NCBI GenBank assembly: GCA_017405115.1
Contig: JAFRBA010000080.1
Location: forward strand, 1 to 8,445
Reading direction: 5' to 3'
DNA: 8,445 nucleotides
Source: Kiritimatiellia bacterium
GTDB taxonomy: Bacteria; Verrucomicrobiota; Kiritimatiellia; RFP12; UBA1067
In this document: positions 1 to 8,445 of the stretch, piece after piece
Numbering within the stretch: position 1 is the stretch's first letter
Layout of the letters: each line of letters starts with the position of its first letter
Notes under the pieces: model-generated
What the model was told of the DNA's origin: nothing
The model's database searches: none
The model's input: only the letters and a program-made list of their open reading frames with translations
Translations under genes and position numbers: made by a program

Positions 1-96
1 GCCCCGGTCGTGCAACCCGCCGCACCGCAAGCTGCCGCGTCGCAACCCGCCGCACCGCAGGCTGCTGCGTCGCAGCCCGCCGCGCCGCAGCAGTAG
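1..96 (+). CDS. C-terminal end of an unidentified protein with an Ala/Pro/Gln repeat tail (5' partial)
   Basis: Frame 1 is open from the first base to a TAG at 94-96 and encodes 31 residues made almost only of Ala, Pro, Gln and Ser. The unit QPAAPQAAAS occurs twice and then a third, shortened copy QPAAPQQ ends the protein. Low-complexity tails of this kind are usually disordered linkers or ends of envelope-associated proteins; nothing here identifies the family. The stop lies 32 nt upstream of the pseudopilin start on the same strand, so the two genes could be co-transcribed and the protein could be a secretion-system component, but that rests on position only. Frame choice is supported by the perfect 10-codon periodicity and by synonymous differences between the copies. 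Confidence 0.6.
   Translation, partial: APVVQPAAPQAAASQPAAPQAAASQPAAPQQ
13..93 (+). repeat. 30-bp tandem repeat, 2.7 copies, coding
   Basis: Copies lie at 13-42, 43-72 and 73-93 (partial). The first two differ at two positions only (caa/cag and gcc/gct codons), both synonymous. The repeat encodes the decapeptide QPAAPQAAAS at the end of the upstream gene. Confidence 0.85.
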
Positions 97-128
97 ACAC
101 ATGTAACGCAAAAGGAAGGAACACAGTC

Positions 129-548
129 ATGAGCAAAGAAAGAAACAAGTTCGCGGAGGCGGCGAAGCGCGGCTTCACGCTCGTCGAGCTTCTGGTCGTG
201 GTCGCCATTCTCGGCATTCTCGGCACAATCGCCATACAGAACGTGACGGGGCATATCGCAAAGACGCGCATCACTGCGGCGGAGGCGGGCGTGAGGTCGC
301 TTCAGGAGGCGTGCACCACGTACTACATCCAGCACAAGAAGCTGCCGAGCAGCCTTGACCAGCTCATCGAGGGGGACGACCCGATTCTTGACGGCGGCGA
401 AGGCGCGCTATACGACCCGTGGGACAACAAGTACGAACTCGAGACCAAGGGCAAGAAGATAATCGTCAAGTCCGCCGGCGAGGACGGCTCCATGGGCACC
501 GAGGACGACATCCGCAGCGACGTCAAGAAGAAGTCGGAGAAGGACTGA
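129..548 (+). CDS. gspG: Type II secretion system major pseudopilin, GspG-like
   Basis: This 139-residue protein is a type IV pilin-like subunit; GspG family members polymerise into the periplasmic pseudopilus of type II secretion systems. The prepilin peptidase site is clear: a short basic leader ends at Gly15, and cleavage would give a mature protein starting FTLVE with the conserved Glu at +5 (residue 20). The hydrophobic helix spans about residues 16-37. The C-terminal half has the GspG signature: DPWDN at 96-100, SAGEDG at 115-120 and EDDI at 125-128, matching the calcium-binding loop region of GspG proteins. The lysine- and aspartate-rich tail is slightly longer than usual. The start is supported by AAGGAAGGA at 112-120, 8 nt before the ATG. 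No other secretion genes are in the window, so this could be part of a secretion cluster to the left or a stand-alone pseudopilin. A strong terminator follows. Confidence 0.93.
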   Translation: MSKERNKFAEAAKRGFTLVELLVVVAILGILGTIAIQNVTGHIAKTRITAAEAGVRSLQEACTTYYIQHKKLPSSLDQLIEGDDPILDGGEGALYDPWDNKYELETKGKKIIVKSAGEDGSMGTEDDIRSDVKKKSEKD

Positions 549-581
549 CGGGTATCGCTTTCGACATTAGGCGAGGGTTTG

Positions 582-608
582 TTCAAAGAACACTTTGAAG
601 TTTTTTTA
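582..608 (+). terminator. Rho-independent terminator after the pseudopilin gene
   Basis: TTCAAAG (582-588) pairs perfectly with CTTTGAA (593-599) around the loop AACA, and is followed by G and seven T residues (601-607). The 7-bp stem plus T-tract, 33 nt after the pseudopilin stop, is a textbook intrinsic terminator. It separates that gene from the GRE operon. Confidence 0.85.
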
Positions 609-646
609 TTCGACTGGCGTAGTCGCGCTCATTTCGTAAAATTGGC

Positions 647-652
647 TATAAT
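647..652 (+). promoter_or_regulatory. Candidate -10 box (TATAAT) for the GRE-symporter-activase operon
   Basis: A perfect TATAAT stands in the only AT-rich stretch between the upstream terminator and the GRE gene. No good -35 hexamer is seen 16-18 nt upstream; GTCGCG at 622-627 is the nearest distinctive element. Transcription would begin near 659 and leave a leader of about 69 nt that contains the palindrome at 700-717. Confidence 0.4.
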
Positions 653-699
653 TTGTTTCGCATAAGTTGATGCGCAAGGTGCCTGTTGTGGCATAATAT

Positions 700-717
700 C
701 CTGCAAACTTTTGCAGG
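700..717 (+). promoter_or_regulatory. 18-bp palindrome (possible operator or RBS-masking hairpin) upstream of the GRE gene
   Basis: CCTGCAAA (700-707) and TTTGCAGG (710-717) are perfect reverse complements with a 2-nt centre (CT). The right arm overlaps the first bases of the Shine-Dalgarno AGGAAG (715-720) of the GRE gene. As DNA it has the symmetry of a LacI- or GntR-type operator; as RNA it would need a larger loop but could mask part of the ribosome binding site. The AraC-type regulator in the window would more often bind direct repeats, so the cognate factor is unknown. Confidence 0.5.
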
Positions 718-727
718 AAGTCGTACA

Positions 728-2968
728 ATGAGATATGCGGAAAGAATGGCGCGGCTGACGGCTCGGAAGATCAGCCAGACGAGGGAGAAGCAGGAGCGGC
801 TTGGCGCACGCGACGAGGACGACTACGGCCTTGTGCTGCCGCCGGAGTCGTTCAAGGTGGATTTGCCCGTGCGGGATGCGACCGGACAGTGGTCTGGGCC
901 GCGTTCATGGGCGGCTAACTTCCGCTGGCTCATGGAGAACCACCCTTGCTACATCGACCCCGACGACGCCATTGCCGGACGCTGGATGTTCATGCTTTCG
1001 CGGATGCGGCTTGGCTACCAGCTCTCGCGTTCCAACTTCGCGTTCGACTACTCCCATCTCGAACCGCTCCAGAAGAAGTACGACATCACGACCGGAATCG
1101 GCAAAGACGCCCACTTCGCGCCTGACTATCAGATTGGTCTCGACCTCGGCTGGGGCGGACTTCTCGAGAAAGTTAGGGCTTCAAGGCGGAAGTTTGAAGA
1201 TGTTTTAAACGCAGAGTCGCAGAGTCGCAGAGAACTCAAGTCCAACTCTGCGTCTTCGCGTCTCTGCGTTGAGAAATCAGAACGAGAAAGCGATGCATTA
1301 TATGCCATTGAGCTTCTTGAAGCCGAGGAGCAGGCGATACTCGGCGTGATGACATGGACGCGTCGGCTCGCCGCCGCAGCCGACGACCGCGCAATGACAG
1401 AGGACGATTCGGAGCGGCATGCCAACCTCGTCGAGATGGCGAGAATCTGCTACAAGATTGCGGACGCGAAGCCCGATACGTTCCGTGAAGTAGTGCAGTG
1501 GATTGCCATATTCAACATGGCCTCGCGCACGTACAACCGCGATGGCGCGGGCGGACAGCTCGACGAACTTCTGCGTCCTTACTACGAACGCGACAAGGCG
1601 GCGGGCATCCTCACGGACGAAGACGCCGAGTTCTATTGCTTCTGCCTTCTCCTCAACGACCCGCACTACTACCAGATCGGCGGCCCGGCTGCGGACGGAC
1701 GAGACCAGACTTCCCGCATGAGCTACATAATCCTCGAAGCCGCCGCGAAGCTGAAGTCCAGCTGCAACCTGACGATTCGCGTGTGGGACGGCATGGATCG
1801 TGGGCTGTTTCGCCGCGGCGTGGAGATCCTTCTCGCGAATCGCCTCGGCTATCCGCGCTTCTCCGGCGACAAGGCGCTCGTAGACGGATTCATGCGGAAC
1901 GGCTATGATGCTTCGCTTGCCCGCCGCCGCATCGCCGTCGGCTGCAACTGGATGTCGCTGCCGGGGCTGGAGTACACCTTGAACGATGTTGTGAAGATCA
2001 ACATCGCAAAAGTCTTTGAGGTTGCGTTCGTCGAATCGGACAGCCTTGAATCGCTGGAGGCGAACTATCGGCGACACTTCAGGGCCGCCGTAGATGTGAC
2101 GGCGAAAGGCATAGACTTCCACCTCGCGCACCAGTACTTGAACGAGCCAGAACTCATGCTCAATCTTCTTTCGCACGGGCCGATAGAGAAAGGCAAAGAC
2201 GTTTCGCACGGCGGAGCCGAGTACTACAACATGGCCATTGACGGCGCGGGGCTTGCAGTTGTCGCCGACAGCTTCGGTGCGATAGAGCAGCGCGTGGTCA
2301 AGGAAAAGGCGGTATCGTTTGCGGAGTTGAAGGCGGCGGTTGCGTCGAACTTCGACGGCGAGGAAGGAGAGCGCATCTGTAGACTCATGGAGAGTGCCGG
2401 ACGTTACGGCGCTGGTGGTACGGACGCCGACCGCTGGGCCGTGAAGCTTACGGAGATATTGAATGGCGAGATAGCGAACCACACAACCCCTGACGGTTTC
2501 AAACTTATTCCAGGCTGGTTCACGTGGGCGGACACACTGCGCTTCGGACGTGCCGTCGGCGCAACACCGAACGGTCGCAAAGCGGGTGAGCCGATCTCGC
2601 ATGGCGCGAATCCGCTCCCCGGCTTCCGCAAAGACGGTGCGCTGACGGCAATGGCGACGTCGATAGCGTCCGTGCAGCCTGGCTACGGCAATACCGCGCC
2701 TTGGCAGCTTGAAGTTGACATCGGCCTTGCGAAAGACGCTGAGGCCGTTGAGAAGATCATGGCGCTCATAGACGGGCACTTCAAGCTTGGCGGTACGCTC
2801 GTCAACATCAACGTCGTCGATGCCGAAAAGATACTCGCCGCCCATAAAGACCCGGCAAAGTTCCCAGACCTCGTCGTGCGCGTAACCGGCTTCACGGCGT
2901 ACTTCAACTCGCTTTCTCCCGCATTCCGCGAACTCGTAGTGAAGAGGCTGGTGAGGGAGGCTGTCTGA
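728..2968 (+). CDS. Glycyl radical enzyme of the pyruvate formate-lyase family, substrate unknown
   Basis: The 746-residue protein has the PFL-like N-terminal barrel domain followed by the C-terminal glycine radical domain. The radical motif RVTGFTAYF is at residues 718-726, with the radical glycine at Gly721. The active-site cysteine is Cys406 in VGCNWMSLPG (404-413), followed by TLNDVVKIN, as in other family members. The GRE dehydratases and C-C/C-N/C-S lyases (glycerol and diol dehydratases, CutC, HypD, HPAD) carry a Glu two residues after this Cys; here the position is Trp408, so chemistry cannot be transferred from them. The position of the cysteine in a single-Cys loop also differs from the Cys-Cys pair of PFL itself. 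Residues 161-181 are encoded by a palindromic repeat insertion. I chose ATG 728 because AGGAAG lies 7 nt upstream; a TTG at 686 in the same frame has no ribosome site. The symporter starts 1 nt after the stop, and the activase is third in the operon. The enzyme would be cytoplasmic and strictly oxygen-sensitive. Confidence 0.9.
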   Translation: MRYAERMARLTARKISQTREKQERLGARDEDDYGLVLPPESFKVDLPVRDATGQWSGPRSWAANFRWLMENHPCYIDPDDAIAGRWMFMLSRMRLGYQLSRSNFAFDYSHLEPLQKKYDITTGIGKDAHFAPDYQIGLDLGWGGLLEKVRASRRKFEDVLNAESQSRRELKSNSASSRLCVEKSERESDALYAIELLEAEEQAILGVMTWTRRLAAAADDRAMTEDDSERHANLVEMARICYKIADAKPDTFREVVQWIAIFNMASRTYNRDGAGGQLDELLRPYYERDKAAGILTDEDAEFYCFCLLLNDPHYYQIGGPAADGRDQTSRMSYIILEAAAKLKSSCNLTIRVWDGMDRGLFRRGVEILLANRLGYPRFSGDKALVDGFMRNGYDASLARRRIAVGCNWMSLPGLEYTLNDVVKINIAKVFEVAFVESDSLESLEANYRRHFRAAVDVTAKGIDFHLAHQYLNEPELMLNLLSHGPIEKGKDVSHGGAEYYNMAIDGAGLAVVADSFGAIEQRVVKEKAVSFAELKAAVASNFDGEEGERICRLMESAGRYGAGGTDADRWAVKLTEILNGEIANHTTPDGFKLIPGWFTWADTLRFGRAVGATPNGRKAGEPISHGANPLPGFRKDGALTAMATSIASVQPGYGNTAPWQLEVDIGLAKDAEAVEKIMALIDGHFKLGGTLVNINVVDAEKILAAHKDPAKFPDLVVRVTGFTAYFNSLSPAFRELVVKRLVREAV
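1208..1270 (+). repeat. 63-bp palindromic repeat element inserted in-frame in the GRE gene
   Basis: The left arm 1208-1232 begins AACGCAGAG and contains two further CGCAGAG units at 8-nt spacing. The right arm 1246-1270 ends CTCTGCGTT and is its imperfect reverse complement (21 of 25 positions pair), around a 13-nt centre. The element starts exactly on a codon boundary, is 21 codons long, contains no stop, and encodes a polar Ser/Arg-rich peptide at residues 161-181. CGCAGAG-type palindromes are, to my knowledge, usually dispersed intergenic repeats in bacterial genomes. It sits between the GWGGLLEKV segment and the next helix of the GRE, where relatives have a variable linker. Confidence 0.85.
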
Positions 2969-2969
2969 A

Positions 2970-4589
2970 ATGCTGCTGAACGGAATTGATTGGGCGGTGA
3001 TCGCGGCTTTCTTCGCGATACTTGCGCTCATACCGTCTGTCGCGTCGCTCAAGTCGCGACGGACGGCGAACGATTTCTTCACGTCGGGACGATCCATGCC
3101 CTGGTGGCTCATCGGCTTTTCGATGGTCGCGGCGACGACTGCGACGGACAGCGCCAACTTCTTCACGGAAGTCATACGCCGCGACGGCATGAGCGGAAAC
3201 TGGGTGATGTGGGCGTTCATCCTGACTGGCCTGCTCACTGTGTTCGTCTACGCGAAGCTTTGGGTCAGATCGGGCGTCACGACGGACATCGAGTTCTACG
3301 AACTTCGCTATTCAGGCAAGCCCGCAGTTTTCCTGCGCGCATTCCGTACGCTCTACCTCGGTGTCGTGTTCAACGTGCTTGTCCTTGGCAACGTGATCCT
3401 TGCGGCGGTCAAGATCGGCGTCGTCCTCTTCGGAATAGAGCCATCGACGATCTACGTCGTCACAATCGTCGCATCTATCGTCTATACATTCTTCGGCGGG
3501 ATACGCGGTGTCATTTGGACTGACTTCTTCCTTTTCCTCGTCATCATGGCTGGGGCCGTCGCGGCGATGGTGTACGGTCTCTCCCTTCCGGAAGTCGGGG
3601 GGATTGCCGGAATCGTCTCAAACCCCGAGACCGCGAAGCGGCTCTCGATCCTACCGGACTTCAGCGACTGGAACACGCTCGTCCCGGTATTCGTCATCCC
3701 GCTCGCGGTGCAGTGGTGGAACGTATGGAAGGCCGGGAGCGAGCCCGGCGGCGGCGGGTACATCGTCCAACGCATGCTCACCGCCAAGAGCGATGCCCAT
3801 GCGCTTGGCGGAACGCTTTTCTTCAACGTCCTCAACTGGGTGATCCGTCCGTGGCCGTGGTACGTGGTCGGGCTCTGCTCCGTGCTCGTCTACCCCGACC
3901 TCGCGTCCATACAGGCCGCATTCCCGAACGTTGACCCTTCGCTGGTGCAGGGCGACATGGCGTATCCCGCGATGCTCACGAAAGTCCCCAATGGATGGCT
4001 CGGCGTTGTCGCCGTCTCCATGATGGGCGCGCTCTTCTCCACCGTTGCCGCGCATCTCAACCTCGGCAGCGCCTACATGGTCAACGACTTCTGGAAGCGC
4101 TTCGTTCGTCCAAAGGCGTCCGACCGCGAGCTCATCTGGATAGGACGTTCGTCTATGCTGCTTTTGCTTCTTCTCGGATGCATCATCGCCCCGCACCTCA
4201 AGAGCGCGAAGGGCGCCTTTGACCTGATGCTTCTCATCGGCGCAGGTTCGGGAGCAGTATTTCTTTTGCGGTGGTTTTGGATGCGCATCAATGCGTGGAC
4301 CGAGATAGCGGGGATGGGCGTGTCGTTCGTCGTCGCTATCATCATGCAGTGCTGCTGCGGTCATTTTGAGCCATGGAAGAAGATGGTTGTCACAATAGTG
4401 ATCACTTCCGTGAGCTGGCTTGCAGTTACATTCCTCACGAAACCGACGGACGAGGCGACGGCGAGCCGGTTCAAGGCGGCAGTCCGCGCCAAGGGCCGCG
4501 ACGTCGGAAAGGGTGTTCTGTATACGGCACTGTCCGCATTTGCGATATTCTTCCTGATGTGGGCCGTGGGGGCTTTGCTTTTCCGATGA
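2970..4589 (+). CDS. Sodium:solute symporter (SSS / SLC5 family), probable sugar or sugar-acid importer
   Basis: This 539-residue protein is very hydrophobic with about 13-14 predicted transmembrane segments, starting at residues 7-25 and ending at 516-537, as expected for the LeuT-fold SSS family. Family features include ARRTANDFF-type sequence after helix 1 (RRTANDFFTSGRSMPWW, 30-46), FFGGIRGVIWTDF at 174-186, and GALFSTVAAHLN at 353-364, where Ser357/Thr358 match the Na2-site Ser/Thr of the family. A glycine-rich PGGGGYIVQRM (259-269) and RPWPW (293-297) mark a subgroup common in polysaccharide-degrading anaerobes; substrates of that subgroup are mostly untested. The start has AGGGAGG at 2954-2960 and lies 1 nt after the GRE stop. 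Its stop overlaps the activase start (ATGA at 4586-4589). Its place between enzyme and activase suggests that it imports the GRE substrate or a precursor. Confidence 0.92.
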   Translation: MLLNGIDWAVIAAFFAILALIPSVASLKSRRTANDFFTSGRSMPWWLIGFSMVAATTATDSANFFTEVIRRDGMSGNWVMWAFILTGLLTVFVYAKLWVRSGVTTDIEFYELRYSGKPAVFLRAFRTLYLGVVFNVLVLGNVILAAVKIGVVLFGIEPSTIYVVTIVASIVYTFFGGIRGVIWTDFFLFLVIMAGAVAAMVYGLSLPEVGGIAGIVSNPETAKRLSILPDFSDWNTLVPVFVIPLAVQWWNVWKAGSEPGGGGYIVQRMLTAKSDAHALGGTLFFNVLNWVIRPWPWYVVGLCSVLVYPDLASIQAAFPNVDPSLVQGDMAYPAMLTKVPNGWLGVVAVSMMGALFSTVAAHLNLGSAYMVNDFWKRFVRPKASDRELIWIGRSSMLLLLLLGCIIAPHLKSAKGAFDLMLLIGAGSGAVFLLRWFWMRINAWTEIAGMGVSFVVAIIMQCCCGHFEPWKKMVVTIVITSVSWLAVTFLTKPTDEATASRFKAAVRAKGRDVGKGVLYTALSAFAIFFLMWAVGALLFR

Positions 4590-5386
4590 AGGGGATTGTC
4601 TTTGACATTCGGCGCGGCGTTACGAAGGACGGCCCGGGACTTCGCACGAGCGTGTTTCTGAAGGGATGTCCGCTCCGATGCGTCTGGTGCCACAACCCTG
4701 AATCGCAGTCGCCGGAGATCGAGCGGGCGGCGACGACGGACGAAGTGTGCGGACGCGAGATGTCCGTCGAGGAGGTGATGGCGGAGGTCTGCCGCGACAA
4801 GGTGTTCTACGCCTCTTCGGGCGGCGGCGTGACGATCACTGGCGGCGAGCCGATGATGCAGGCGGATTTCGCGTTTGCGCTTGCTTCCGCCGCGCACGAA
4901 GACGGTATCCATGTTGCCCTCGACACGTGCGGCTTCGCGCCGTGGGGTGCGTTCGAGAAGATGATCCCCGTCGTCGACCTCTTTCTCTACGACCTGAAGT
5001 GCATTGACGCCAGGCGTCACCGCGAGCTGACCGGCGTGGACAATTGTGTGATACTTGAAAATCTGCTGCGTCTTGATGAGGCCGGCGCGAAGACGATGAT
5101 TCGCTGTCCGCTCGTGCCGGGGCTGAACGATTCCGATGAAGACATCGCCGCCATCAGGGATTTCGTGGTAGGGTCACGCGTCCCGCGTGACCACGGACGC
5201 GCGGGACGCGCGTCCCTACCGGGTTCTGGCCTTCGCAACATGGAGAAGTTTGAGATCTGTCCGTACCATCCGCTTGGACTGGAGAAGTACGCCAAGTTCG
5301 GAAAGAAGGTCTTATACGACAATCCACATCCTGCCAGCAAGGAAGATGTAGCGAGATGGGAGCGTAAGTTTCACTTTGAAGCCTGA
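4586..5386 (+). CDS. Glycyl radical enzyme activase (radical SAM), PflA-like
   Basis: The 266-residue protein would use S-adenosylmethionine and a [4Fe-4S] cluster to install the glycyl radical on the GRE encoded two genes upstream. The cluster motif CxxxCxxC is Cys28-PLR-Cys32-VW-Cys35, followed by HNPES. TGGEPMMQ at 85-92 contains the GGE motif that binds the methionine group of SAM, and LDTCG (112-116) and YDLKCID (135-141) are further family blocks. Only about 20 residues separate HNPES from CGREMSVEEV, so the ferredoxin-like insert with extra clusters present in many GRE activases is missing, as in PflA. The start ATG overlaps the symporter stop (ATGA), giving translational coupling; only a weak G-rich sequence lies upstream, and a longer in-frame extension into the symporter gene is unlikely to be used. 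Residues around 194-212 are encoded by a palindromic insertion between IRDFV and LRNMEKFEICPYHPLG, sequences that are near-adjacent in relatives. Confidence 0.93.
   Translation: MKGIVFDIRRGVTKDGPGLRTSVFLKGCPLRCVWCHNPESQSPEIERAATTDEVCGREMSVEEVMAEVCRDKVFYASSGGGVTITGGEPMMQADFAFALASAAHEDGIHVALDTCGFAPWGAFEKMIPVVDLFLYDLKCIDARRHRELTGVDNCVILENLLRLDEAGAKTMIRCPLVPGLNDSDEDIAAIRDFVVGSRVPRDHGRAGRASLPGSGLRNMEKFEICPYHPLGLEKYAKFGKKVLYDNPHPASKEDVARWERKFHFEA
5167..5220 (+). repeat. 54-bp palindromic repeat element inserted in-frame in the activase gene
   Basis: The element is an imperfect inverted repeat of 26 + 2 + 26 bp (5167-5192 and 5195-5220, 22 of 26 positions pairing). The outer arms GGTAGGG (5167-5173) and CCCTACC (5214-5220) pair perfectly. 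Inside are two separate perfect hairpins: TCACGCG/CGCGTGA (5174-5190, loop TCC) and GGACGCGCG/CGCGCGTCC (5195-5215, loop GGA). It is 18 codons long with no stop, so the activase frame stays open. The encoded peptide is rich in Gly, Arg, Ser and Pro and unlike the rest of the family. GC content is much higher than in flanking codons. Confidence 0.88.
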
Positions 5387-5412
5387 CCCTCATGTCCAGT
5401 CGCGCATTGCGG

Positions 5413-6618
5413 CTATTCTCTGCCGGGCAGACGGGTGGCGTCGGAGCGCCAGGCGCTCATGGTGGTGCCGATGCGCGACTTGAAGAGCCTTTTCAAGTGT
5501 GATGGAGAGTTGAAGCCGCAGAACGTCGCGAGGTTGTTGACGGGGATTGTCGTCTTGCGCAACAGTGATTTTGCCTTCTCCAGCCTTACTTCCTGTATCG
5601 CGTCGAGGATCGTCGTTCCTGTTACGGCCCTGAAATTCCGCTGAAGGACTCGCGGCGACACTCCGACGGCCGCCGCGACGTCTCCGACGCCGATCTGCGT
5701 CGTCGCATACTGGCGGATGAACTTCTTCGCGGCGGTTATGCGCTGGGCAGTGCCGTATATGTCAGTGGTGGATATCCGCTCCACGATTCCCCTGATGCCG
5801 AAGGCGATATGCCTCGACTGTCCCTTGGCCGCTCTCCCCCGCTCCGAGCCGCGAAGCACTCCGTCCAGGAACTCTGCGGCGGCGAATCCCCCCGCTTCGT
5901 AGTCGGGCGCTATCGACGAAAGAGTCGGCACGGTCTGTTCGCAGATGTGCGTTTCATCGTCCACGCCCAGCACCTGTATCTGCTCCGGGACGGAAAGCCC
6001 CGCGAAGCGGCATGCGTCGAGGATGTGCTTGCCGCGAAGGTCGTAGGCCGCGAACACTCCGCAGGGCAGTGGCAGCGATTTCAGCCATCCGGCAATCGTC
6101 TTTTCATGCATCGCCCAGCTGTTTTCGGTGGGCTTGCCGAAGCGGTGCACTGCCGCGTCCGCCGCGCCTATGGATTCGGAGAACGCCTCGTAGCGCTCTC
6201 GGTCCCAGCTTCGTGGACTGGCATCGCCTATGTATGCGAAGTTGGCGAGCTTTTTGTGGAGGAAGAACGCGGCGGCCGTCTTGCCGATCTGCGAGTTGTC
6301 TGGTTCGAGAACCGCGCACGGATGCCGCCAGCCTTTCGGTGGGGCAGTGTTCACGAACACCGCCGCGCGTCCGCTGGTCGCCGCAAACGCCTCGTTGTCG
6401 ACGGTGTGGCAGCGGCAGTCGGTGATGATTGCATCGGGTTTCCAGTCCCTGTAGAATGACAGGTTGCCGTAGGGCAGTTCGCGGTCGGTGAACTGCACCT
6501 CCCAATGGTGGTTCGTCGTGGCGAAGTGAAGGATTCCGTACAGGATCTTTCGCGCCGCCTCGTACTGGGCGTCGAGATGCACAAGCATCCGCAGCAGTTT
6601 CGTGTTTGCCGTCTTCAT
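5413..6618 (-). CDS. XylR-type transcriptional regulator: periplasmic-binding-like sensor plus AraC DNA-binding domain
   Basis: The 401-residue protein has the layout of E. coli XylR. Residues 6-285 form a LacI/ribose-binding-like sugar sensor, with landmarks PDAIITD (61-67), VFVNT (87-91), YIGD (129-132), GVFAAYDLRGKHILDAC (187-203), PEQIQVLGVDDE (211-222) and TLSSIAPDYEAGG (232-244). Residues 290-392 form an AraC domain with two helix-turn-helix units near 308-331 and 355-378 (VGDVAAAVGVSPRVLQRNF and NNLATFCGFNSPSHLKRLF). It probably binds a sugar and activates nearby catabolic genes. I start it at the ATG read from 6618, which matches the N-terminus of the family; upstream in-frame starts at 6636 and 6738 add residues unlike it, and the last would run across the GH5 start. 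No Shine-Dalgarno precedes 6618, and a TATACT lies 8 nt before it, so the mRNA may be leaderless. It converges on the GRE operon with 26 bp between stops and diverges from GH5. The effector is unknown. Confidence 0.9.
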   Translation of the reverse strand: MKTANTKLLRMLVHLDAQYEAARKILYGILHFATTNHHWEVQFTDRELPYGNLSFYRDWKPDAIITDCRCHTVDNEAFAATSGRAAVFVNTAPPKGWRHPCAVLEPDNSQIGKTAAAFFLHKKLANFAYIGDASPRSWDRERYEAFSESIGAADAAVHRFGKPTENSWAMHEKTIAGWLKSLPLPCGVFAAYDLRGKHILDACRFAGLSVPEQIQVLGVDDETHICEQTVPTLSSIAPDYEAGGFAAAEFLDGVLRGSERGRAAKGQSRHIAFGIRGIVERISTTDIYGTAQRITAAKKFIRQYATTQIGVGDVAAAVGVSPRVLQRNFRAVTGTTILDAIQEVRLEKAKSLLRKTTIPVNNLATFCGFNSPSHLKRLFKSRIGTTMSAWRSDATRLPGRE

Positions 6619-6626
6619 CGCGGTGA

Positions 6627-6632
6627 AGTATA
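6627..6632 (-). promoter_or_regulatory. Candidate -10 box (TATACT) for the regulator gene
   Basis: On the - strand TATACT (five of six matches to TATAAT) ends 8 nt before the proposed ATG at 6618. Transcription would start at or within a few bases of the start codon, consistent with the lack of a ribosome binding site. No convincing -35 is seen. Confidence 0.3.
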
Positions 6633-6698
6633 TCATATGAAAAAAGGCATGGCGCGAAACAGAACCTCCTCCGTCGCGATATGAGACCAATGGTGGGG

Positions 6699-6704
6699 TA
6701 TAAT
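6699..6704 (+). promoter_or_regulatory. Candidate -10 box (TATAAT) for the GH5 gene
   Basis: A perfect TATAAT preceded by a G run lies 13 nt before the ATG at 6718. The predicted transcript would have a leader of only about 7 nt. No typical -35 is seen; GTCGCG at 6673-6678 occupies nearly the same relative position as the GTCGCG before the GRE operon's TATAAT. Confidence 0.4.
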
Positions 6705-6717
6705 ACACGGTGGAAAA

Positions 6718-8337
6718 ATGATGGATTCCATTCTGCACATGAGAGGTCGTTCACTGGTATTTTTGCTTGTTTTCGCAATGGCGGCAATCTCCGCGCATTG
6801 CGAGGTCCCGTCATGTCGCGCCGCATTACGGGCCGAGGACATAAGATGGAGCGGTTTGACCTGCCATGCGAGACGAGACGGTGACAGACTGGTGGTGAAC
6901 GTTCCGCAGGAGAAGAAGTCCACGGCGTTGTTCGGCATCTCTGGCATCCTTCCGGCGGACAGGATCGGCTCCGCACAAGCCCTGCGGGCGACGATACGTG
7001 CTCGCGGCGCGGGAATCGCAAAGCCGAAGATATCGTACCTTGGCCTCAAGTTTCAGTTCCGCCTTTACGATGCCATGACGGGCATGTCCATGCACCCGAA
7101 TACGCCCACGGTACGATATGGATCGTTCGAGTGGCAGACGCTCGACGTATATGCTGTCCTTGGCGGATTGCAGATAGGGCATGACGTCACGCTTTCGCTC
7201 GGTTTGCAAGGAACCTCGGGAGAGGTGGAGTTCGACCTCTCGACACTCTCCATCAAATTGGACGAGGTCCTCTTTCCGTGCAAAAACGCCGACCTCGTTG
7301 CGTCGTATTCTCCATCAGTCCGTGATATGACTCGGCTGCGAGGTGTTATGTTGCCTGGCGGGCGTGATCTACAGGAAGATGATTTCCGCGAAATGGCGCG
7401 TTGGGGTGTAAAACTCGGTCGCTACCAGATGATTCGAGGATGGAACGCATGGGTGAACGGTCCGACGGACATTGATCTTGCCGAATACGACAAATGGATT
7501 GACGGCCGCCTTGACCATCTTGATGCCGTTGTGTTGCCCATGGCGAGGAAATACGGCATGAAAATCGTGGTGGATGTCCATTCGCCCCCGGGAGGACGCA
7601 AAAAGACCGGGGAGATGGAGATGTTCTTCGACGCGCGTTTTCGCGACCACTTCATCGCGCTTTGGCGGCGAATAGCAACCCGCTTCAAGGGCAATGCCGA
7701 CGTGATATACGGCTATGACCTCGTGAACGAGCCGCAGCAGTTGCGTCCTGCGCCGTTCGACTACTGGAGCGTCCAGCAAGAGGCGGCCACGGCCGTGCGG
7801 GAGATAGACGCCGACACGCCGATAATAATGGAATCGAACAACATGGATTCGCCGGCGGCTTATGCGTACATGAGTCCTCTCGCTCTCACAAACATCATCT
7901 ACCAGGTTCACATGTACATTCCTAGCGACTACACGCATCAGGGAGTGTTCGGCGGAGGGTCGATGCCATATCCCGATCCTGAGCGTGGGCGTGATTATGC
8001 TTGGCTGCGGAAGACGCTGGGGCGCGTTCGTGATTTTCAACTCCGGCACGGTGCGCGCATATATGTCGGCGAGTTCAGCGCCGTCGCATGGGCACCGGGC
8101 GCGGCTCGCTACATTGAGGACTGCATCTCCATTTTCGAGGAGTACGGCTGGGACTGGACGTACCATTCCTTCAGGGGTTGGAACGGCTGGAGCGTGGAGC
8201 ATGAAGGCTTCGACATCTCGCACATGACCCCATCCGCCGACAATCCTCGCAAGCGAGCCCTGCTTGCCGGTCTTGGATCTTCCCGTAAACCCAAAGGAGA
8301 CAAACATGGTGCGCCAAGCAAAGCTCGGCAGAGCTAA
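6718..8337 (+). CDS. Secreted glycoside hydrolase family 5 protein with N-terminal beta-rich domain
   Basis: The 539-residue protein is a probable endo-acting beta-glycanase (cellulase-type clan A enzyme). Residues 9-27 form a hydrophobic signal peptide (RGRSLVFLLVFAMAAISAHC), with cleavage probable near Ala26-Cys28; it lacks a good lipobox. Residues about 36-185 look like a beta-sandwich, possibly carbohydrate-binding, that I cannot assign. The catalytic TIM barrel runs from about 200 to 505: Arg235 (KLGRYQ), His288 (VDVHSPPGG), acid/base Glu338 in DLVNEP, His398/Tyr400 (VHMY) and nucleophile Glu452 in YVGEFS match the conserved GH5 positions. The substrate (cellulose, mannan, xyloglucan or other) cannot be chosen from this. 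The tail after 515 is short and basic. The start could be ATG 6718, 6721 or 6739; none has a strong Shine-Dalgarno (GGTGGAAAA precedes 6718), and 6739 would give the most typical signal peptide. Divergence from the XylR-type regulator suggests shared control. Confidence 0.9.
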   Translation: MMDSILHMRGRSLVFLLVFAMAAISAHCEVPSCRAALRAEDIRWSGLTCHARRDGDRLVVNVPQEKKSTALFGISGILPADRIGSAQALRATIRARGAGIAKPKISYLGLKFQFRLYDAMTGMSMHPNTPTVRYGSFEWQTLDVYAVLGGLQIGHDVTLSLGLQGTSGEVEFDLSTLSIKLDEVLFPCKNADLVASYSPSVRDMTRLRGVMLPGGRDLQEDDFREMARWGVKLGRYQMIRGWNAWVNGPTDIDLAEYDKWIDGRLDHLDAVVLPMARKYGMKIVVDVHSPPGGRKKTGEMEMFFDARFRDHFIALWRRIATRFKGNADVIYGYDLVNEPQQLRPAPFDYWSVQQEAATAVREIDADTPIIMESNNMDSPAAYAYMSPLALTNIIYQVHMYIPSDYTHQGVFGGGSMPYPDPERGRDYAWLRKTLGRVRDFQLRHGARIYVGEFSAVAWAPGAARYIEDCISIFEEYGWDWTYHSFRGWNGWSVEHEGFDISHMTPSADNPRKRALLAGLGSSRKPKGDKHGAPSKARQS

Positions 8338-8383
8338 CAGAATGAAAGGAGTCTGTACGGCAAAGAAAACGAAGTGCCGTTAG
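8306..8383 (+). CDS. Possible small ORF (25 residues, basic) overlapping the GH5 end
   Basis: ATG at 8306 has a strong AAAGGAG Shine-Dalgarno at 8293-8299 with 6-nt spacing, better than any other start in this part of the window. The ORF overlaps the last 32 nt of the GH5 gene in another frame and ends with TAG at 8381-8383. The peptide begins MVRQAKLGRANRMKG, has 9 Lys/Arg in 25 residues and two Cys, and resembles no family I know. Its stop is the first base of the hairpin at 8381-8431, an arrangement like a leader peptide before a downstream gene. It could also be chance. Confidence 0.3.
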   Translation: MVRQAKLGRANRMKGVCTAKKTKCR

Positions 8384-8431
8384 GAAGATTGGCTGCGCGG
8401 AGGGCGACCGACGCGCAGAAGCCCAATCCTA
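8381..8431 (+). repeat. Imperfect hairpin downstream of GH5
   Basis: TAGG (8381-8384), ATTGG (8388-8392) and CTGCGCG (8393-8399) pair with CGCGCAG (8412-8418), CCAAT (8423-8427) and CCTA (8428-8431), leaving bulges of 3 and 4 nt and a 12-nt loop. It has no T-tract, so it is not a standard terminator. It may be a regulatory leader structure, a third palindromic element, or a weak terminator. AAAGGA followed directly by ATG (8433-8441) comes next, too close for a normal ribosome site. Confidence 0.45.
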
Positions 8432-8445
8432 CAAAGGAATGAGCC

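Follow-up and report, generated by a model that had tools for sequence, protein, structure and literature searches.

How does a short palindrome come to lie, in frame, inside the gene for a radical enzyme activase, and what becomes of the protein that takes it in? The question is raised by an 8,445-nt stretch of DNA from a Kiritimatiellia bacterium (contig JAFRBA010000080.1, positions 1 to 8,445; hereinafter the window), in which a 54-nt palindromic element lies in frame within the open reading frame (ORF) 4586-5386 of a glycyl radical enzyme (GRE) activase. We assign a probability of roughly 0.9 to an explanation in which the element is a doublet of repetitive extragenic palindromes (REPs) that was copied into the gene by a REP-associated tyrosine transposase (RAYT) and is tolerated in a loop of the enzyme.

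The palindromic insert and its empty sites

The element and its parts are as follows:

5167..5220, no strand assigned: REP doublet (GTAG head-to-head dimer, or REPIN-like unit), 54 nt, recognized by its fold and by near-identical 54-mers in relatives, the best with 1 difference
5167..5192, plus strand: left REP, GGTAG and a 9-bp stem with loop TCC, its exact 26-mer also present in 35 of 114 family genomes
5193..5194, no strand assigned: 2-nt spacer AC, with GC instead in 40 of 42 distinct 54-mers examined
5195..5220, minus strand: inverted right REP, its exact 26-mer also present in 15 of 114 family genomes

Read from end to end, it runs from GGTAG through a 9-bp stem-loop, two bases and a second 9-bp stem-loop to CTACC (26 + 2 + 26 nt), with arms (5167-5192 and 5195-5220) that are 85% complementary and 2 nt apart. 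As single-stranded DNA, positions 5160-5227 fold at -26.9 kcal/mol into two hairpins closed by an outer stem, an energy matched by 0 of 200 dinucleotide-preserving shuffles (z -5.55). The original prediction, made from the letters of the window, had described a 54-bp element with GGTAGGG/CCCTACC ends at exactly these coordinates and a cloverleaf-like layout of an outer stem and two inner hairpins, all of which holds. It had further called the element a transposable or REP-type unit, leaving the family unnamed; as both halves have a GTAG foot, a perfect 9-bp stem (within the 5-13 bp that define the class) and a 3-nt loop, we can now place it as a head-to-head dimer of GTAG REPs. An Rfam search returned no match, and a search of a plasmid collection a single weak one (37 nt, E 0.6).

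Among the 120 activase homologues listed, out of 7996 found, only the window's own protein (P0001) has the insert: in the other 119 of 119 the helix end (RDF) runs directly into LRN.EK.E.CPYH. At the DNA level, eight relatives with an empty site (73-85% identity over the longest matching pieces) are each exactly 57 nt shorter at this point, which, with the protein alignment, gives a net insert of 19 codons at about residues 195-213. The addition predicted relative to insert-free activases, 18 in-frame codons, was thus right as to frame and one codon short. The three surplus bases, placed by alignment to all eight DNA relatives, are probably window positions 5221-5223. Palindromes can be misassembled and the window fits a metagenome record, as an assembly or sequencing artefact at this GC-rich site would have it; we nevertheless reject an artefact as vanishingly improbable, as P0001 is recorded on 8 contigs (possibly not independent assemblies), which speaks against an error of a single assembly, the 54-mer recurs in other genomes with one base difference, and the insert keeps the frame.

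A dispersed family and its candidate transposase

Using the exact pattern GGTAGGG-N20-50-CCCTACC, with the reversed pattern as control, we recovered doublets from 52 of the 114 genomes in the G001 family of related genomes (6 in G001 itself and up to 39 per genome, against 0-5 for the controls). The exact left REP of the window reaches 20 copies in one genome, and reversed controls for both the left and the right REP gave 0. In a named panel of 38 genomes from many phyla, picked from 76 further loci, 5 had the pattern: one Kiritimatiellaeota genome (3 copies), two Lentisphaerae genomes (58 and 13 copies; controls 5 and 0) and two genomes with a single chance-like match each. No doublet pattern turned up in the remaining Lentisphaeria/Lentisphaerae and Victivallales members of the panel. 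The 20 stretches examined around near-identical 54-mers have 1-6 differences from the window element and unchanged ends, the sole difference often being the spacer base (A in the window, G in the others). By eye, 8 of these copies have flanks of their own, and 12 fall into three like-flank groups of 6 (L441-L445, L459), 4 (L449, L452, L453, L457) and 2 (L450, L451), so that the 20 do not amount to 20 independent insertions. Among the relatives seen, the activase nearest to ours in DNA sequence (85% over the longest piece) is that of genome G048, which holds 21 doublets and near-identical copies with 2 (L444) and 1 (L452) differences from the window element. An inverted REP pair is hence dispersed as one heterodimeric 54-mer with the same ends and outward GTAG, as is characteristic of REPINs. 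Judged from these comparisons of sequence, the insert in the activase is a copy of a mobile palindrome, in frame and unique to the window protein among the listed homologues.

For the analysis of stem covariation, we used only copies whose length is exactly 54 nt, 57 in all and 42 of them distinct, which give 56 distinct REP halves. Their 9-bp stems pair in 96.2% of cells, against a mean of 65.0% and a maximum of 70.2% in shuffles (n=500) and 36-42% with slid partners; cells with a double change number 153, with 49.1 expected and a shuffle maximum of 66. The GTAG foot is constant as the stems change in compensating pairs; the sameness of the outer 7 nt carries no weight of its own because the search pattern sets those bases. 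Of the 42 distinct copies, 1 has identical halves and 37 have the same loop in both, and both window halves are identical to halves that occur elsewhere.

The flanks were counted in 128 copies, after removal of duplicates and of elements less than 60 nt from a contig end. A target-site duplication, which the original prediction had proposed looking for, was absent at 4-9 nt from all 128; repeats of 2 nt (3 copies) and 3 nt (1 copy) were fewer than the shuffled means of 7.1 and 1.6. This is expected of a REP and not of a miniature inverted-repeat transposable element (MITE) of the DDE type, for which GGTAGGG/CCCTACC would be terminal inverted repeats recognized by a cut-and-paste transposase. 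Such a MITE would match the element in its shortness, non-coding nature, perfect inverted ends and dispersed copies; yet the flanks show no duplications, both halves are GTAG hairpins complete in themselves, with covarying stems, and the same hairpins are found at RAYT genes, so that we reject it as highly improbable, although no search aimed at a DDE transposase with such ends was made.

The outward GTAG feet and the missing target-site duplication point instead to a transposase of the HUH type. A matching group of RAYTs was reached through the NCBIfam REP model and then with the protein of locus L302 (genome G143) as query. The L302 RAYT (NF047646, 85.9 bits, cut-off 80) has two pattern-exact doublets upstream and a degenerate one, read by eye, downstream; 49 of 110 family genomes contain relatives of it. 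GGTAGGG hairpins are present at 14 of the 30 given RAYT loci of the G001 family, a REPIN-RAYT linkage seen in these relatives, and include an exact copy of the window's left REP at the L350 locus and ten hairpins at the L346 locus of G048. With further units in 52 genomes, near-identical copies that share their ends and RAYT genes bearing the same REPs, the earlier guess at a REP-type mobile unit is borne out. At 36 RAYT loci of G143 and G150, GTAG was the foot of a hairpin in 27 of 272 cases; seven control tags, permuted or complementary, together gave 28 of 2726, with 10 of 302 for the highest of them. GTAG hairpins of other families lie at several of the remaining RAYT loci. On the 128 known elements the hairpin scanner flagged both halves in 107 and at least one half in 124, and therefore misses some hairpins; a stricter version found 0 hairpins in 28 loci. 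RAYTs of Lentisphaerae/Kiritimatiellaeota at L305, L322, L333 and L316 have GTAG REP families of their own, with different stems.

Another candidate source, the Y1 transposases found with PF01797, was set aside: some of these lie among GGGGACTGTCCCC-like repeats and none has a hairpin of the GGTAGGG family. At L106 and L111, Y1 transposase genes stand amid many GGGGACTGTCCCC-like repeats, which resemble the GGGGWSAS repeats described for TIRYT genes by Di Nocera 2013 (PMC3733652).

Several observations weigh against a RAYT-copied doublet as the source of the insert. The net insert of 57 nt is 3 nt longer than the 54-nt unit. No exact doublet was found in 62 of the 114 G001-family genomes, and no GTAG hairpin at 16 of the 30 RAYT loci. 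The L302 RAYT finds no match in G001, a genome with doublets. Doublets are present in both G143 and G150 as well, yet the GGTAGGG family occurs at only 1 of 18 and 0 of 18 of their RAYT loci, respectively. Any GTAG hairpin at all was seen at 2 of 58 Y1_Tnp (PF01797) loci, and one of the GGTAGGG family at none. Finally, copy number and RAYT association are known from related genomes only and not from the window's own genome, and there is no RAYT among the six annotated ORFs of the window.

Taking these together with the evidence above, we still favor the RAYT-copied doublet. The element consists of two GTAG REP hairpins, joined head to head and belonging to a family that has spread through Kiritimatiellae and some Lentisphaerae genomes. 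A RAYT (an HUH/Y1 enzyme) acting in trans would most likely have placed a single-stranded DNA copy of it in the activase gene. The family identity, the same-end dispersal and the covariation are direct observations; the RAYT as mover of this particular copy we infer. Published biochemistry (PMC8266576) has TnpA-REP enzymes cutting REPs in single-stranded form at CT, and in one case at CA as well, with a varying dependence on the GTAG.

Comparison with described systems agrees with this assignment. GTAG-17 of Opitutus terrae, as portrayed by Di Nocera 2013 (PMC3733652), likewise comprises short GTAG-tagged hairpins in head-to-head pairs 1-2 bp apart, and heterodimers comparable to the window doublet are described there for several GTAG REP families. 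That account also gives intragenic GTAG REPs as a known exception and places REPs inside genes of O. terrae, uvrA included, in a host of the same Planctomycetes-Verrucomicrobia-Chlamydiae (PVC) superphylum as ours; since O. terrae has several REP families, its intragenic REPs need not be GTAG-17. The likeness is one of described architecture; our system differs in the hosts (here Kiritimatiellae/Lentisphaerae) and in the target (here an activase). The REPINs of Pseudomonas fluorescens (Bertels and Rainey 2011, PMC3116915) are mobile, RAYT-linked inverted doublets with compensatory hairpin changes, as here; however, their commonest REP spacings are 71 and 110 bp, whereas our halves almost touch, and they are mostly extragenic, whereas up to 50 of our 128 copies may be intragenic. 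TnpA-REP subclass 2.4, as presented in Quentin et al. 2018 (PMC6006769), shares with our system GTAG-foot REPs and their in-frame presence in RAYT genes. The Rickettsia palindromic elements (RPEs) are, by description, similar in being short palindromes set in frame in protein genes; RPE-4 and RPE-6 are listed among CGTC repeats without a dedicated transposase (Di Nocera 2013, PMC3733652), unlike the GTAG-tagged window element. The fit of the latter to both a GTAG REP head-to-head dimer and a REPIN is well supported. Among the papers listed by our literature search, to which subscription papers were mostly inaccessible, none was found to describe REPs in Kiritimatiellae or Lentisphaerae.

The activase, its gene cluster and REPs in other reading frames

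The activase is the third of three consecutive genes, and its closest named relatives are from Kiritimatiellae metagenome-assembled genomes of ruminant guts:

686..2968, plus strand: glycyl radical enzyme, pyruvate formate-lyase (PFL)-like; longest ORF, the true start probably being a later ATG
2970..4589, plus strand: sodium:solute symporter, between GRE and activase, its stop overlapping the activase start (ATGA)
4586..5386, plus strand: GRE activase (radical SAM), 266 aa, in which the element begins with the last base of codon 194

The GRE of the cluster is the likely substrate of the activase. That the host is a radical SAM activase of GREs, as originally predicted, follows from its match to TIGR02494 (260.1 bits in a profile search, curated cut-off 174.35). 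The claim that its catalytic motifs survive is also upheld: C28, C32 and C35 of the CxxxCxxC motif are all present (C28 nearly invariant, C32 and C35 invariant among 60 aligned homologues), and so are all invariant columns of that alignment. An AlphaFold2 model built with the 60 homologues (mean pLDDT 86.4, pTM 0.85) falls below pLDDT 50 only at residues 13-15 and 199-208. Its best PDB match is the PFL activase 3cb8 (TM-scores 0.83/0.90, 31% identity), and the PFL-activase fold is predicted to be kept with the insert in place. The mapping onto a PflA-like structure suggested beforehand puts the insert, as the predicted new loop, in a low-confidence disordered segment that joins helix 184-195 to strand 219-226. 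In TIM barrels such α-to-β loops sit opposite the active-site end.

Two views of the insert as something other than a neutral passenger bear on this model. In the first, it would have disabled the enzyme and left a drifting pseudogene, as 19 residues added to a compact protein might; however, the frame is open to its end, the invariant columns are retained, and the protein is recorded on 8 contigs, which makes gene loss quite unlikely. In the second, the added peptide would alter GRE docking or control, in keeping with the intact enzyme cluster, the conserved activase motifs and a palindromic repeat in the partner GRE as well. Against such an adaptive role, which we regard as very unlikely, stand the placement of the insert in a low-confidence helix-strand loop on the side away from the expected active site, the occurrence of the same doublets in ORFs of several unrelated proteins, and an alanyl-tRNA synthetase (AlaRS) linker that holds different repeats in different genomes at lengths that stay multiples of 3. 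On the model, the likeliest reading of the insert is a tolerated loop, and the activase probably still works, in agreement with its kept motifs. We propose that preservation of the frame, together with a landing site in a helix-strand loop away from the side expected to hold the cluster and S-adenosylmethionine, allowed the copy to persist; unlike the family identity of the element, activity and neutrality are inferred.

The repeat inside the GRE ORF is unrelated to the doublet: it is an imperfect palindrome at window positions 1203-1275 (AACGCAGAGTCGCAGAG.../...CTCTGCGTT) with 30-nt arms that are 80% complementary. Of 56 family genomes, 29 contain matches to fragments of it, and it therefore belongs to another dispersed repeat family.

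Up to 50 of the 128 doublets lie within ORFs spanning at least 40 codons on each side (the remaining 78 have no such ORF), an upper bound because GC-rich DNA yields spurious ORFs. We scanned 20 of the longest element-bearing ORFs (L208 and L084, equally long, were left out), and 13 matched a Pfam family. In 2 of the 20 a single aligned domain spans the element, namely in AlaRS (L190) and in a glycoside hydrolase family 2 (GH2) enzyme (L151); in UvrA (L154) and in a GH32 enzyme (L206) the element falls between domains, and in an ABC protein (L085) it follows the ABC domains. The AlaRS linker was compared in 15 loci, where the stretch measures 87-147 nt, every length being divisible by 3, and differs in content by genome (L190 975-1115; L427-L440): L190 has a GGTAG doublet, L429 a different GTAG-like doublet, and L428 and L434 have GGGGAAC minisatellites. 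Varied repeats at lengths in multiples of 3 indicate that loops collect repeats while the frame holds.

Nine RAYT genes (L347-L352, L354, L357, L359) have in-frame GGTAG REPs ahead of the HUH motif; past the motif, all 9 have an antisense GGTAG site, which the scanner marked as a hairpin in 8. The positions fall in the same aligned regions on either side of HUH. The copies nearest HUH differ within a gene by a mean of 1.3 of 26 positions (range 0-5) and between genes by 10.3, with three of the nine genes having nearly the same REP. As REPs inside tnpA-REP genes have already been published (PMC6006769), these are an extension, differing from what is described there for subclass 2.4 in that REPs also precede HUH, in two aligned regions and nine genes. 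The peptide encoded by the activase insert (VGSRVPRD...) is the same as a loop peptide of the L350 RAYT. One might go further and suppose that the RAYT/REP system decorates the Kiritimatiellae proteome, with doublets sowing loops in frame across enzymes and REP-coded loops as a recurrent, reusable protein module and not just debris; we consider this rather unlikely.

The locus offers a natural experiment: among the listed homologues, this activase alone has taken in a mobile element without loss of frame, and its partner depends on it. Since relatives with an empty site exist at 73-85% DNA identity over their longest matching pieces, what a REP-coded loop costs the enzyme can be measured. The findings also widen the range of GTAG REP doublets, and of the transposases that go with them, to include Kiritimatiellae and Lentisphaerae, and let the stems be seen changing by compensation around a fixed GTAG foot.
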